A stretch of 64,000 bases of DNA, taken from Halalkalicoccus sp. CGA53. GTDB taxonomy: Archaea; Halobacteriota; Halobacteria; Halobacteriales; Halalkalicoccaceae. Position 1 is the first letter of the stretch; each line of letters opens with the position of its first letter. The DNA is taken from contig NZ_CP144125.1 of NCBI RefSeq assembly GCF_036429475.1, positions 1,302,001 to 1,366,000 on the forward strand, given 5' to 3'. The notes beneath the pieces were generated by a model. That model was not told the origin of the DNA. It worked only from the letters and a program-made list of their open reading frames with translations, and made no database searches. Positions 29,092 to 38,812 of this stretch are shown one piece after another. A program made the translations under genes and the position numbers.

Positions 29092-29910
29092 TCAGCCGGT
29101 CGGATCGATCCGTTCGCGGGTCCACCGGTCGTCGTCGTACTTCGCCTCGGCGATCTCCTCCGCACGGTCGAGTTCGGCCCCGGTCCAGGAGCCCTCCTCC
29201 GCGTCGGTCCACTCGGCCAAGGCGGTCTCGAGCGCCCGCACTGCCTCCTCCCTCGGAATTCCGCTCTCCTCGAAGATCCCCGTCACCCGGTCCTCGAACG
29301 CCCGCTCGCTCACCCCGTGATCCGCGAAGACCGCGAGGTGCGCCTCCGCTCGAACCTCGTAGGTGAGCGAGCCGTGCTGGATCACCGTCTCGCGCTGGCG
29401 GTACTGCGCGTTGCCGCTCACCTTCCTCCCCTCCACACCTGCCACCACGTCGTGTGCGGGGTGGAGCTCGCGCAGGTAACAGGCCGGGTGGTGGATCTCG
29501 GGCTGTGGCACCTCGGCGAACCGGGCGTCGACGCCCATCCGGGAGAACCCCTCCAGAACCGGCTCACAGAGCAGGTGATAGGAGTCGATGAGCTTCCCGG
29601 GGAGCTCCGCAGCGGGCGCGACGATCGAGTAGGAGACGTCGCCCACCGAGTCGTGGTAGATCCCGCCGCCGCCGGTCGGCCTACGTGTGACGGTGATCCC
29701 CTCCCGGTCCGTACACTGCCAGTCGACCGTCTCCGGGTCCTGGTGGTAGCCGAGCGAGAGCGTGCTCGGCTCCCAGCGGTAGACTCTCAGTGTGCGCGGG
29801 CCCCCTGCCGCGGCGGTCTCGGCGGCCACCTCGTCGAGCGCCATGTTCGTCGGACCGTCCCACGACTCCTCGCGGATCAGCCGCCACTCCCGGTCGGCGA
29901 GGTCGGTCAT
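29092..29910 (-). CDS. Lipoate-protein ligase A family protein
   Basis: A 272-residue biotin/lipoate ligase-fold enzyme. The lipoyl-AMP loop is VTRRPTGGGGIYHDSVGDVS, the catalytic lysine lies in EGRKVSGNAQYRQ, and ESWDGPTNMALDEVAAE opens the domain. It attaches lipoate or octanoate to E2 and H proteins; haloarchaea use it for 2-oxoacid dehydrogenase and glycine-cleavage proteins. No separate C-terminal accessory domain of E. coli LplA size is present; the last 60 residues are helical. ATG 29910 is the first Met consistent with the fold. Confidence 0.88.
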   Translation of the reverse strand: MTDLADREWRLIREESWDGPTNMALDEVAAETAAAGGPRTLRVYRWEPSTLSLGYHQDPETVDWQCTDREGITVTRRPTGGGGIYHDSVGDVSYSIVAPAAELPGKLIDSYHLLCEPVLEGFSRMGVDARFAEVPQPEIHHPACYLRELHPAHDVVAGVEGRKVSGNAQYRQRETVIQHGSLTYEVRAEAHLAVFADHGVSERAFEDRVTGIFEESGIPREEAVRALETALAEWTDAEEGSWTGAELDRAEEIAEAKYDDDRWTRERIDPTG

Positions 29911-30309
29911 GCTCGCGGTACCGAGCGTGTGGACAAAGCGGTTGCGACGGGCGGCCTCCCGACGGTCGGTGTACGGTCCGCGAGACTTCCGTAAAATACC
30001 GATGGTCCATCGATCCACTACAAGATGGAGCAGGGATCGGGGGGATCAGTCACCCCCGACCGCCGCCCTAAGCGGGGAATCAGCTACGACCATAACGGAT
30101 GAATTACGATCTGAGGCGATTCTCGGCGTTGTGAGAGCCGTTCGGTGTACCGATACGGCTAGTTCTTCTTGGAGGCACCCAAATTCGATCAGAATGGCGC
30201 TAGATACCTCTAATCGCTCTATGGGTCGAAGTCCGGACCGAGATCACCGACCGAACCTGGTTTTCGATCAACACAATTGATTATTTGGAAGAAATACTAA
30301 CTACTAAGG
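29911..30309. other. Intergenic region without recognised gene
   Basis: About 400 bp between the lipoate ligase and the TAT four-repeat protein. G+C falls steadily to the right (AACACAATTGATTATTTGG around 30270). I find no convincing coding frame, RNA gene or repeat. A TATTT at 30279-30283 may serve the downstream gene. Confidence 0.4.
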
Positions 30310-32001
30310 ATGCTGACGGTATCCTTGTGGTCGCCTATGGCTAACGAATCTCGAAAATGGACAGACGAGAGGCTACCCGGAAGTCGGCGTTGGTTCCTCA
30401 CGGGAATCGCTGCAACAGGAATCGGTATGACCGGTATTACTGGTGCGGCAGCAGAAGAGGATAAAGACCCAATCGGGCCGACCGACACTATCGAGTGTGG
30501 CCAGACGATTTCTGGGAAACTCACAGAAGATGACGCACATGGCTTTCACGAGGCGGGAGGTGTGGACTTCCCTGAAGTCATGCCCGTCCCGCACGACGCC
30601 TTTGAGTTCGCCGCAAATGCGGGTCGGCACCTTACCTTTTCTGTGGATTGCTCCAGATCCCACATGCATCCGTTGCTGATTCTCCTCGATCCGAATCAGG
30701 AGATCATAACCTTACCGACGTATTCCTCGTTCTTAGCTCACCCTAACCGATTCCGATATCACGTGCCTGAGACGGGTCAATATACGATCCTTGTGACGAG
30801 TAGGTATGCTGACCAGTACTTCGAGTATGAACTTTCTCTTAGTTGCCAGACGACACGGGAGCTGATTGGCGATACCGAACACATCTGTTGCGGTGATGTC
30901 GTGCAGGGCGAACTGACCCCCGACGATACTGCCGGCTACAATCTTCACGAACCGACGGCTGTTCACGATGCGTACGAGGTAGACCTTCAGGGAGGAGAAA
31001 TCATCAGGGCAACACTAATCGGGGATCCGGACCATCAGTGGGAACAGAACGGTTTCTTCAACCACGCCGATGTCGATCTTTTGGACGAAAACGGGGAACG
31101 GGTGTTCACCCACGGTATCAGGGATGGGAGGCTGATCAGTCAAAAATCGAATAATTTGGGGGAATCGTATCTCTGGGGAAGGGTTCCAGCCGACGGTCGA
31201 TACACCCTGCTTGTGACGTCCATCTGGGAGGCATACTTCAGCTACGAACTGGGGATCGCCTGTGGTCCCGATATCCCCATCCACTCCCGAGCGATTGCGT
31301 GCGGTGAGACCCGTTGTGGCGACGTTCGGGTCGACCCGGACCGGTTCCCACTGGATCCACCGCCGACCGACAAATACGAGTTCGAGGGTCGCCGGGGACA
31401 GGAGATGACGGTGCGCATCGAATTCCTGGACGGAGTACGGAGTTTGGAGCTCCGGGATCCGAGGGGGAGCATGGTCGGATTCATCAACAGCCCAGAGTCC
31501 CCGATCGAGATGGTGATCCCGAGCGCCTTAGAGGGGATCTACACGTTCGGCGTGTCGGTCCCAACATCGATCTCCCCGGAATCGAACCCCTATAAACTGA
31601 CCCTCGAGTGCGAACCGGACGATCTCCCCGAACCGGACGAGTATTACCCCATTGCGTGTGGACAGTCCGTCGTGGGCGAGCTGACGACCGACGATCTGAC
31701 CGGGTTCCGCGGACCGGAGCATTACCACGACAACTACGCGTTCGATGGGCGACGCGGCCAGACCGTCTCGCTGCGGATGGGGAGTGAAATCGGGAATGGG
31801 ATGCTGTACCTCCTCGATCCCGATGGTGCAGCGATCGCTCAGACGGACGGGACGGGACGCGTTCGGGATGGTTCAATCGACGACGTAACGCTCGAACAGA
31901 CCGGATCGTATCGGATCGTCGCGACCAGCCGGACCAGCCTGGCCACCGATGCGACGTTCGAGTACACCCTGACGCTGTTCTGCACCGGAAGCCAGGACTG
32001 A
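30310..32001 (+). CDS. Secreted (TAT) protein of four Cys-bracketed PPC-like repeats
   Basis: A 563-residue protein (ATG 30310; ATG 30337 is an alternative). The TAT signal is GSRRWFLTGIAATGIGMTGI. The rest is four homologous modules, about 61-180, 191-318, 328-434 and 447-558. Each opens with a (I/A)xCG motif followed by G-x-L/V-T/R-x-D-D (C63, C194, C331, C450), has a HD/D-x-Y/F-x-F/V-x-G-R-x-G core, and closes with Y-x-L-x-(L/I)-x-C (C179, C318, C434, C558). Cys at both ends of each module suggests one disulfide staple per domain. No catalytic domain is seen. Base composition is AT-richer, with codons such as cta, ata and aga uncommon in the neighbours, suggesting transfer. Confidence 0.75.
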   Translation: MLTVSLWSPMANESRKWTDERLPGSRRWFLTGIAATGIGMTGITGAAAEEDKDPIGPTDTIECGQTISGKLTEDDAHGFHEAGGVDFPEVMPVPHDAFEFAANAGRHLTFSVDCSRSHMHPLLILLDPNQEIITLPTYSSFLAHPNRFRYHVPETGQYTILVTSRYADQYFEYELSLSCQTTRELIGDTEHICCGDVVQGELTPDDTAGYNLHEPTAVHDAYEVDLQGGEIIRATLIGDPDHQWEQNGFFNHADVDLLDENGERVFTHGIRDGRLISQKSNNLGESYLWGRVPADGRYTLLVTSIWEAYFSYELGIACGPDIPIHSRAIACGETRCGDVRVDPDRFPLDPPPTDKYEFEGRRGQEMTVRIEFLDGVRSLELRDPRGSMVGFINSPESPIEMVIPSALEGIYTFGVSVPTSISPESNPYKLTLECEPDDLPEPDEYYPIACGQSVVGELTTDDLTGFRGPEHYHDNYAFDGRRGQTVSLRMGSEIGNGMLYLLDPDGAAIAQTDGTGRVRDGSIDDVTLEQTGSYRIVATSRTSLATDATFEYTLTLFCTGSQD

Positions 32002-32021: not shown

Positions 32022-32843
32022 TCAGTCCGCGCTCACCCGACAGCCCTCCTCCGCATAGGAGACCTGCTCGATCGAGTCGATCGCCCCCTCCCCGCAGACG
32101 GGACAGTCGGGGTTCTTCCGGATCTCGACCTCCTCGAACGTCATGTCCATCGCGTCGTAGGCGAGCATCCGCCCCGAGAGCGTCTCGCCGACGCCGACGA
32201 TCATCTTCACCGCCTCGGTCGCCTGGATGCAGCCGACGGTGCCAGGGAGCACGCCCAACACGCCCGTCGTCGCGCAGTCCGGAACCGTCCCCGCCGGGGG
32301 GGCTTCCGGGAACAGACAGCGGTAACAGGGGCCGTCGTCAGCGGGGAACGAGATGACCTGTCCCTCGAACTTGTAGATCGCGCCGTGAGAGAACGGCGTC
32401 CCGGAGAGCGTACAGACGTCGTTGACGAGGTATCTGGTGCGAAAGTTGTCCGAGCCGTCGACGACGAGGTCGTACCCGCCCACCAGTTCTTCCGCGTTCT
32501 CGGGTTCGAGCCGGAGGTCGTGGGTCTCGACCTCGGTATGGGGATTCAGTCGCTCGACGTAGCGTGCGGCGCTCTCGACTTTCGGCTCGCCGACGTCCGC
32601 GTCGCCGTGGACGATCTGGCGCTGGAGGTTCGAGCGCTCGACGACGTCGTCGTCGACGATGCCGAGGGTGCCGACGCCCGCCGCCGCGAGGTACTGGATG
32701 ATCGGGGAGCCCAGGCCGCCCGCGCCGACGACGAGTACGGACGAATCGAGCAGCGCGCGCTGGCCCTCCGGGCCGATCTCGTCCATGATGATGTGTCTGG
32801 AGTACCGGTCCAGCTGGGTCGCATCGAGCGAGAGGCCGCTCAT
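32022..32843 (-). CDS. ubaA: SAMP-activating enzyme E1 (UbaA / MoeB-ThiF family)
   Basis: A 273-residue E1-like adenylyltransferase. ATP site SVLVVGAGGLGSPIIQYLAA, Arg finger SNLQRQIVHG, zinc-binding pairs C173/C176 and C247/C250 (GPCYRC and DCPVCG), and the catalytic Cys190 in TVPDCATTGVLG. In haloarchaea it activates the ubiquitin-like SAMPs for protein conjugation and also for sulfur transfer in molybdopterin and tRNA thiolation. Length and motifs agree with that enzyme. It is convergent with the four-repeat gene and has its own promoter region upstream of ATG 32843. Confidence 0.92.
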   Translation of the reverse strand: MSGLSLDATQLDRYSRHIIMDEIGPEGQRALLDSSVLVVGAGGLGSPIIQYLAAAGVGTLGIVDDDVVERSNLQRQIVHGDADVGEPKVESAARYVERLNPHTEVETHDLRLEPENAEELVGGYDLVVDGSDNFRTRYLVNDVCTLSGTPFSHGAIYKFEGQVISFPADDGPCYRCLFPEAPPAGTVPDCATTGVLGVLPGTVGCIQATEAVKMIVGVGETLSGRMLAYDAMDMTFEEVEIRKNPDCPVCGEGAIDSIEQVSYAEEGCRVSAD

Positions 32844-38071: not shown

Positions 38072-38460
38072 TTCTCGATACCCAACACCATCACGGTCAC
38101 CCTCCGCACCCGGTCGAAGTCCTTCACCCGGTGGACGAACTCCCTGATCTCGTCGGCCTCGCCCCGACAGAAGACCGTCTCGAGACACCACTCGCCCTGG
38201 TGGGTGTGACTCGTCGCTGTAATCACCTCCTGATGTTCGTGTTGGACGTCGTGGAGTGCCTCGATCACGTGGGTGTGTTCGTAGTCGAAGACGACGGCCG
38301 CGGCGACCGTTCCACTCACCCGTTCGAGGTCGGTGTGGCTCTCGACGTACTCGGCCATCGCCTCGCGGATCGCCCGCGAACGGGAGTCGAGACCCTCCGC
38401 CTGCCACGTCTCGTCGAACTCGCCGAGCAGGTCCTCCGGGACGTTGAGGCTCGTTCGCAT
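38068..38460 (-). CDS. NikR-type ribbon-helix-helix regulator
   Basis: A 130-residue protein: an N-terminal ribbon-helix-helix DNA-binding segment (MRTSLNVPEDLLGEFDETWQ) and a C-terminal ACT-like metal domain. The nickel site is recognisable: H74/H76 in VQHEHQEV, H85 and H87 in TATSHTHQGEWC, and C92. The gap between the second His and the Cys is one residue shorter than in E. coli NikR. It should sense Ni2+ or a related metal and repress a transporter; no nickel transporter is within view, so its targets lie elsewhere. Confidence 0.85.
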   Translation of the reverse strand: MRTSLNVPEDLLGEFDETWQAEGLDSRSRAIREAMAEYVESHTDLERVSGTVAAAVVFDYEHTHVIEALHDVQHEHQEVITATSHTHQGEWCLETVFCRGEADEIREFVHRVKDFDRVRRVTVMVLGIEN

Positions 38461-38559
38461 GACCGCGACCTCGGGTGCCCCCCGAATAACGTTGGTGTAC
38501 TACGGCTTCGCTATCCGGGTGATAACACCCGGTTTCCGCTCTCGAACCCCGGGTGAGCT

Positions 38560-38812
38560 ATGGACCTCGTCCCCCTGTTCGCGGGCGTCGTCGGCCTCGG
38601 GATCGGCCACCCCACGAGTTCGATCGCGCTCGTGCTCGCCTTCTTCTGGGTCAGTTCGTTCACCGACACCTCGGACGCGACCTGCTCGGGGACGAGATGA
38701 CGCCGACGCTCCCTTCGCCGCGCTCGCCGAGAAAGGTGTCCTGGACGGTGACGAGGGCTACACGCACGACGACGGGGGGACTGAGCGCCGGGTTCCGCCA
38801 GAACACAGCTGA
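38560..38812 (+). pseudogene. Probable frameshifted small membrane protein gene
   Basis: From ATG 38560 the frame reads MDLVPLFAGVVGLGIG and ALVLAFFWVSSF, then stops at a TGA. A second frame in the same region reads VHRHLGRDLLGDEMTP and a third reads DDADAPFAALAEKGVLDGDE and GYTHDDGGTERR up to 38812. Each piece has haloarchaeal coding character, but none is complete, so at least two frameshifts are implied. A membrane-anchored protein with an acidic tail is the likely ancestor; the coordinates of the shifts are not exact. Confidence 0.45.

Follow-up and report, generated by a model that had tools for sequence, protein, structure and literature searches.

Locus and gene product

The window, by which we mean the whole 64-kb stretch of DNA that was analysed, carries a gene for a four-module protein between a lipoate-protein ligase-like (lplA-like) gene and a ThiF/E1-like (E1-like) gene (Table 1). 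The ORF at 30310-32001 was confirmed, and four repeats are present in its translation. An orthologue with 93% identity was found on contig SKWB01000160.1 (L008) of a Halococcaceae MAG; below, G002 denotes the SKWB assembly and G000 the genome of the window itself. As this orthologue has a GTA opposite the ATG at 30310 while the ATG at 30337 is common to both, the latter is the likelier start. Near its N-terminus the protein harbors the motif SRRWFLTG, which we take to be a twin-arginine (Tat) signal, and no lipobox cysteine was seen in this signal by eye. A Pfam scan of the window protein found PPC only, with no Peptidase S8 or other enzyme domain, and an NCBIfam scan returned only a chance-level match.

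Table 1. Features of the four-module gene and its surroundings (positions of the window)
Feature	Position	Strand	Remarks
Left flanking gene, lipoate-protein ligase-like (LplA-B_cat)	29095..29910	-	
AT-rich upstream gap, GC 0.52	30019..30336	.	alignable to the L008 locus, no match in G001
Gene for four-module protein, 554 aa	30337..32001	+	start by comparison with L008
Likely Tat signal peptide	30337..30453	+	SRRWFLTG..., cleavage near A-A-A, read by eye
Module R1, Cys54 ... Cys170	30478..30846	+	
Module R2, Cys185 ... Cys309	30871..31263	+	
Module R3, Cys322 ... Cys425	31282..31611	+	most diverged
Module R4, Cys441 ... Cys549	31639..31986	+	best PPC match, module modelled
Right flanking gene, ThiF/E1-like	32025..32843	-	

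The preliminary description of this DNA had proposed four modules with CG at the start and Y-x-L-x-[LI]-x-C at the end of each, and both the translation and the cysteine positions bear this out. From R1 to R4 the modules start with ECGQ, CCGD, ACGE and ACGQ and end with YELSLSC, YELGIAC, YKLTLEC and YTLTLFC. Eight of the eleven cysteines of the protein bracket the modules, the others being residues 105, 184 and 327; random placement of eleven cysteines would fill the eight named positions with a probability of ~1.6e-15, the positions having been named post hoc. All eight bracketing cysteines are kept in the orthologue together with C184 and C327, while C105 is replaced by Ser. The two extra cysteines that are kept, 184 (30886-30888, in R2) and 327 (31315-31317, in R3), might form an inter-module bond.

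Fold and family of the modules

The window protein scores 40.6 bits against the Pfam PPC family (PF04151; gathering cut-off 25.9) over two stretches and its orthologue scores 49.7. Two proteins described below, that of G105 and L014, a paralogue with two modules, do not reach this cut-off. A model of R4, built from an alignment of eight modules (those of the window protein and L008), has a pLDDT of 83 and a pTM of 0.80. Structural comparison (Foldseek, VIA-align) matched the model to the lysozyme inhibitor PliG (4dzg, Z 13.0), the Bacillus anthracis PPC domain (5sv5, Z 12.8) and the CBDs of ColG (1nqj, Z 12.8) and ColH (3jqw, Z 12.4), with an rmsd of 2.0-2.2 over 94-100 residues for the top matches. 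GOLD, calpain C2-like and CorA copper protein structures also score Z 9-11.6, so that the fold match of R4 is unspecific when taken alone. As a possible analogue among GOLD domains, a C49-C121 disulfide has been described for TMED9 (PMC11414720), but we put no weight on it. A full-length model of all four modules, made from two sequences, was poor (pLDDT 60); the homology of R1-R3 to the module profile is clear, although R1-R3 are themselves rows of that profile. Taking the family score and the model together, R4 is predicted to have the PPC/CBD beta-sandwich fold.

PliG ranks first among the structural matches of R4 and also gave the module profile its best sequence hit in the PDB (4dy5, E 7e-4), which could mean that the window protein is a secreted PliG-like inhibitor of an extracellular enzyme and not an adhesive binder. 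We consider this improbable, given that a shared fold shows no function and that PPC and collagen-binding domains score within 1 Z of PliG. Haloarchaea also lack peptidoglycan, the substrate of g-type lysozyme, which counts against an inhibitor.

Occurrence of Cys-bracketed arrays

Nine modules from the window's own genome were made into a profile, with which we searched 391 genomes of the class (completeness of at least 90%; taken as haloarchaea from the title of the L008 record). At an E-value of 1e-6, matches were found in at least 32 of the 391 genomes, with up to 11 candidates being scored in each, and loci covering some of the matches were read in 30 of these 32. Modules with bracketing cysteines were found at these loci in only four of the 391 genomes: the window's own genome (G000), G105, G330 and G345. 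When 391 genomes were drawn again, some of them the same ones, 23 had matches at 1e-12, and these reached the closing Cys only in the same four.

The bracketed proteins carry four modules in the window, three and two in its paralogues L013 and L014 (the latter also present in the congener G001), four each in G330 and G345, and two in G105; we define these proteins here as Cys-bracketed PPC arrays. Across 93 modules from 34 distinct ORFs, Cys stands at both ends in 25 and at neither end in 68, with no module having one alone. The set includes the L008 and G001 orthologues, without which the bracketed modules number 19, and the 25 comprise 23 recognised by a script pattern and two, with N or E after the opening Cys, recognised by eye. 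All modules inside one protein are of one kind, and the opening place in Cys-less modules is mostly occupied by Tyr or Val (second profile, in which 19 of 105 rows are unaligned there). Each of the six distinct bracketed proteins has a twin-Arg motif near its N-terminus (signals read by eye), keeps its first opening and last closing Cys, the two-module proteins included, and ends 0-5 residues past that last Cys. The G330 protein contains exactly eight cysteines, all bracketing and none spare.

The distribution of these arrays is sporadic. A search at 1e-15 found no match besides the genome it was centred on, neither among 52 genomes of the G330 genus nor among five of the G345 genus. Among 294 genomes of the phylum, two weak matches fell outside the order (G514 and G600); neither shows a closing Cys, and their opening place is unaligned with a Cys near it. 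A tblastn search of the window protein against plasmids and phages found no relatives, and viral contigs gave no match to the window or G345 protein in a scan that reaches close relatives only. Plasmid records of bacteria were matched by the paralogue L013 (five) and by the G345 protein (four), and the bracketing cysteines are absent in both of the matches that were read (L114 and L115).

It had been suggested that disulfide-stapled, enzyme-free tandem PPC proteins are unusual for a haloarchaeon. As regards enzyme-free arrays as such this did not hold, since Cys-less arrays occur in several genomes and the four that were scanned all lack a peptidase domain; the rarity applies to the bracketed kind only. 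We found no report of Cys-bracketed tandem PPC proteins in the open-access literature. The window protein is a rare, well-defined variant of PPC arrays.

Probable pairing of the bracketing cysteines

The expectation that each module has its own disulfide gains indirect support from the paired presence or absence of the two cysteines in 93 of 93 modules, from the orthologue, in which all eight are kept while C105 is exchanged, and from the first and last cysteines of the six arrays. As both of these are kept in all six, closure inside the modules is favored over closure across the linkers. If the cysteines instead stapled neighbouring modules across linkers, the protein would be a stiff rod and would contain no closed beads. 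The spacing is suitable for this, as only 11-16 residues separate a closing Cys from the next opening Cys (170/185, 309/322 and 425/441 in the window protein; 228/239, 409/420 and 536/551 in that of G330). However, such wiring leaves the first opening and the last closing Cys of every array without a partner and G330 has no spare Cys to supply one, so a rod of this kind seems unlikely. Rather, one disulfide per module is probable.

We also asked how often the Cys type had changed. Five changes were counted on a tree of 86 modules, from which pieces shorter than 85 aa and the six modules belonging to the L008 and G001 orthologues had been excluded. Three were counted on a tree of 80 modules, built after removal of six long rows; R3 of the window was one of the removed rows, and three of the six were Cys rows. 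A single origin of the Cys type was not rejected (p-AU 0.22) and well-supported branches hold only one independent pair. Given that one clade of the Cys type is compatible with the data, the co-occurrence of the cysteines is unusable as a significance test.

A different partner for the opening Cys is suggested by the halolysin SptA, in which mutants and gel mobility demonstrated a Cys303-Cys338 disulfide in a jelly-roll-like C-terminal extension (PMC3158780). In the halolysin-type sequence L143, the cysteine of a CG motif aligns with the opening Cys of our modules and is followed by a second Cys at the SptA spacing of 35 residues, one column away from the CGDC motif that the two-module proteins of G000 and G105 carry in their second module. 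It is therefore conceivable that the opening Cys of the modules is generally bonded to a residue about 35 positions on, as in SptA (PMC3158780) and as the extra cysteines at +32/+35 in these second modules would allow, with the closing Cys otherwise engaged. We regard this as very unlikely, however, since the four window modules close at +103 to +125 and are free of cysteines near +35, and since eight of 15 modules compared contain no cysteines besides the bracketing pair. The alignment itself rests on one sequence (one of the 13 S8 tails that we inspected had the CG motif), and at an E-value of 0.15 the profile match lacks significance. Rather, as the CG cysteine of L143 aligns and that of SptA is bonded, the opening Cys may mark an ancient site of disulfide bonding, with a different partner in these modules.

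The CGDC-containing second modules, which lie in L014:5192-6124 (+) and L074:8931-9971 (-), have their extra cysteines at +32/+35, near the SptA partner position. With four cysteines in one module, two pairings are possible in each.

Base composition and inheritance of the gene

The base composition and codon use of the gene differ from those of its neighbours, as had been noted from the sequence: its GC is 0.575 (57.5%) and its GC3 0.66, as compared with a GC3 of 0.82-0.93 in 17 neighbouring genes (24-40 kb of the window; an ORF at 38459-38809 with a GC3 of 0.66 was dropped as not gene-like). The gap before the gene is likewise AT-rich (Table 1). A cruder list covers 41 other ORFs from across the window, among them some in a wrong frame. 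Its GC values range from 0.64 to 0.71, which makes the gene an outlier; in GC3 (mean 0.80) it is no outlier, as the minimum of that list is 0.50. Within the gene, GC3 is 0.59 and 0.63 in R1 and R2 and 0.77 in both R3 and R4. The 5' half (30337-31263; R1 and R2) has a GC3 of 0.59 versus 0.76 in the 3' half (31264-31998), and the halves differ also in dS (0.26 versus 0.13), as the parts of a mosaic gene might.

Two of three congeners (G000 and G002) carry the gene at the same site. In the third, G001, a single contig has the lplA-like and E1-like genes with 615 bases between them, and nothing there matches the gene. For the sister genus, matches to these flanking genes are separated by 315-1013 bases in six genomes; a seventh (G009) has no E1-like match. 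Two of the three sister-genus gaps that we looked at (L070 and L071) hold another, unrelated Tat-type ORF of ~270 aa, and the interval therefore resembles a variable site occupied by genes for exported proteins. Inspection by eye revealed neither a mobile gene near the window gene nor, among the surrounding ORFs, a neighbour shared by the genes of G000, G330, G345 and G105, and no tRNA was found in the 64-kb window. A direct repeat of 11 identical bases (30055/32002) lies on either side of the gene; we rejected its reading as a target-site repeat, as other exact 11-12-base repeats occur in the region. In G105, an integrase SAM-like ORF with a GC3 of 0.55 (L074:7718-8758, -) adjoins the two-module gene, perhaps as the border of a provirus or island.

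At the two flanks, all three congeners are separated by similar distances (dS 0.35-0.52). Between G000 and G002, dS is 0.20 (CI 0.15-0.25) for the gene versus 0.36-0.52 for four flanking genes, uncorrected for base composition, and the whole-gene interval stops just short of that of rpl15e (0.256). The 3' half (0.13, CI 0.08-0.19) is below the flanks while the interval of the 5' half (0.18-0.35) overlaps them.

Acquisition by transfer had been proposed from the composition of the gene. The gene-free site in G001, the lower dS and the patchy distribution suggest such a transfer, between related haloarchaea; G001 may instead have lost the gene. The family, however, is native to the genus: the same genome contains two paralogues of normal composition elsewhere (three and two modules; GC3 0.83 and 0.86), and the two-module one, near dnaJ, is shared with G001. 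These paralogues are also compatible with a wholly vertical history, in which the gene is an old paralogue evolving fast under weak codon selection, its low GC the result of drift and its absence from G001 a loss. The low GC of the orthologue (0.571) and the overlap of the 5' half with the flanks would fit such a history. Weak codon selection, though, should raise dS, and that of the whole gene is roughly half as high as at its flanks; the high GC3 of the paralogues and the sporadic occurrence of the Cys type in two other genera speak against it as well. We consider vertical descent a serious but less likely account than exchange.

Proposed role and meaning

We propose, with evenly balanced confidence, that this accessory gene encodes a Tat-exported, enzyme-free multivalent binder of four disulfide-closed beads of the PPC/collagen-binding type, probably exchanged between haloarchaea. 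In each module, a disulfide would join the Cys just before the first strand to the Cys that ends the last strand. Export and oxidation outside the cell would then yield a salt- and protease-resistant string of beads, and these beads could bind an extracellular protein or other polymer multivalently, in the way a halolysin's PPC-like tail serves its protease, here with no protease attached. This copy would probably have been exchanged between related haloarchaea at the variable site flanked by the lplA-like and E1-like genes. Binding by such domains has precedents: the C-terminal domain of SptA binds collagen and is protected from cleavage by its disulfide (PMC3158780), and conserved Asp and Tyr/Trp residues mediate protein binding by the PPC domains of protease E495 (PMC3327674). 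Much of the acidic loop (DDDSG) seen in many relatives is missing from the window modules, so their binding may differ or be lost.

We further hypothesize, more tentatively, that the Cys-bracketed arrays are a distinct haloarchaeal class of beads, in which a PPC jelly roll became closed end to end as the partner of the halolysin cysteine moved C-terminal. Arrays of two to four such beads would serve as free multivalent binders that are sporadically transferred, with the low-GC copy spread between related species. PPC domains are mostly known as appendages of proteases and here PPC modules make up the whole protein; such modules may supply compact, robust binding units. The presence or absence of the Cys pair as a unit is a natural experiment on the role of disulfides in keeping secreted proteins stable when salt is high. 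The patchy copy, which one congener lacks at the same site, offers a tractable case of possible secreted-protein exchange among haloarchaea.

Comparison with known systems

As a member of the PPC family (PF04151), the window protein has a sequence above the curated cut-off and an R4 fold that fits, but it differs in lacking a peptidase, in having a Cys pair around each module and in consisting only of modules after the signal. The ColG and ColH CBDs (1nqj and 3jqw) and the B. anthracis PPC domain (5sv5) share the predicted fold (Z 12.4-12.8) at 16-19% identity; unlike the window modules they are attached to collagenases. PliG (4dzg), a periplasmic inhibitor of g-type lysozyme, resembles R4 in fold (Z 13.0, 21% identity), yet it is a single-domain enzyme inhibitor of Gram-negative bacteria.

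The Cys-less tandem PPC proteins of the class are homologous and likewise enzyme-free but lack the bracketing cysteines, and those in L017, L025 and L028 have what appears by eye to be a lipoprotein-type signal (LAGCS/LAGCT). The L017 protein (L017:4808-6751, -), a Cys-less array of five modules, could be a counterpart of the window protein that is anchored in the membrane.

The nearest studied relative is the tail of halolysin SptA, whose CG cysteine is bonded to another partner. As described, this tail is haloarchaeal, secreted, jelly-roll-like and disulfide-stabilised, starts its Cys pair with Cys-Gly, and was related to a CBD by its authors' modelling (PMC3158780). In contrast to the window protein, it is a single domain on a subtilase, and its Cys pair is set 35 residues apart (303-338) and not end to end (PMC3158780).
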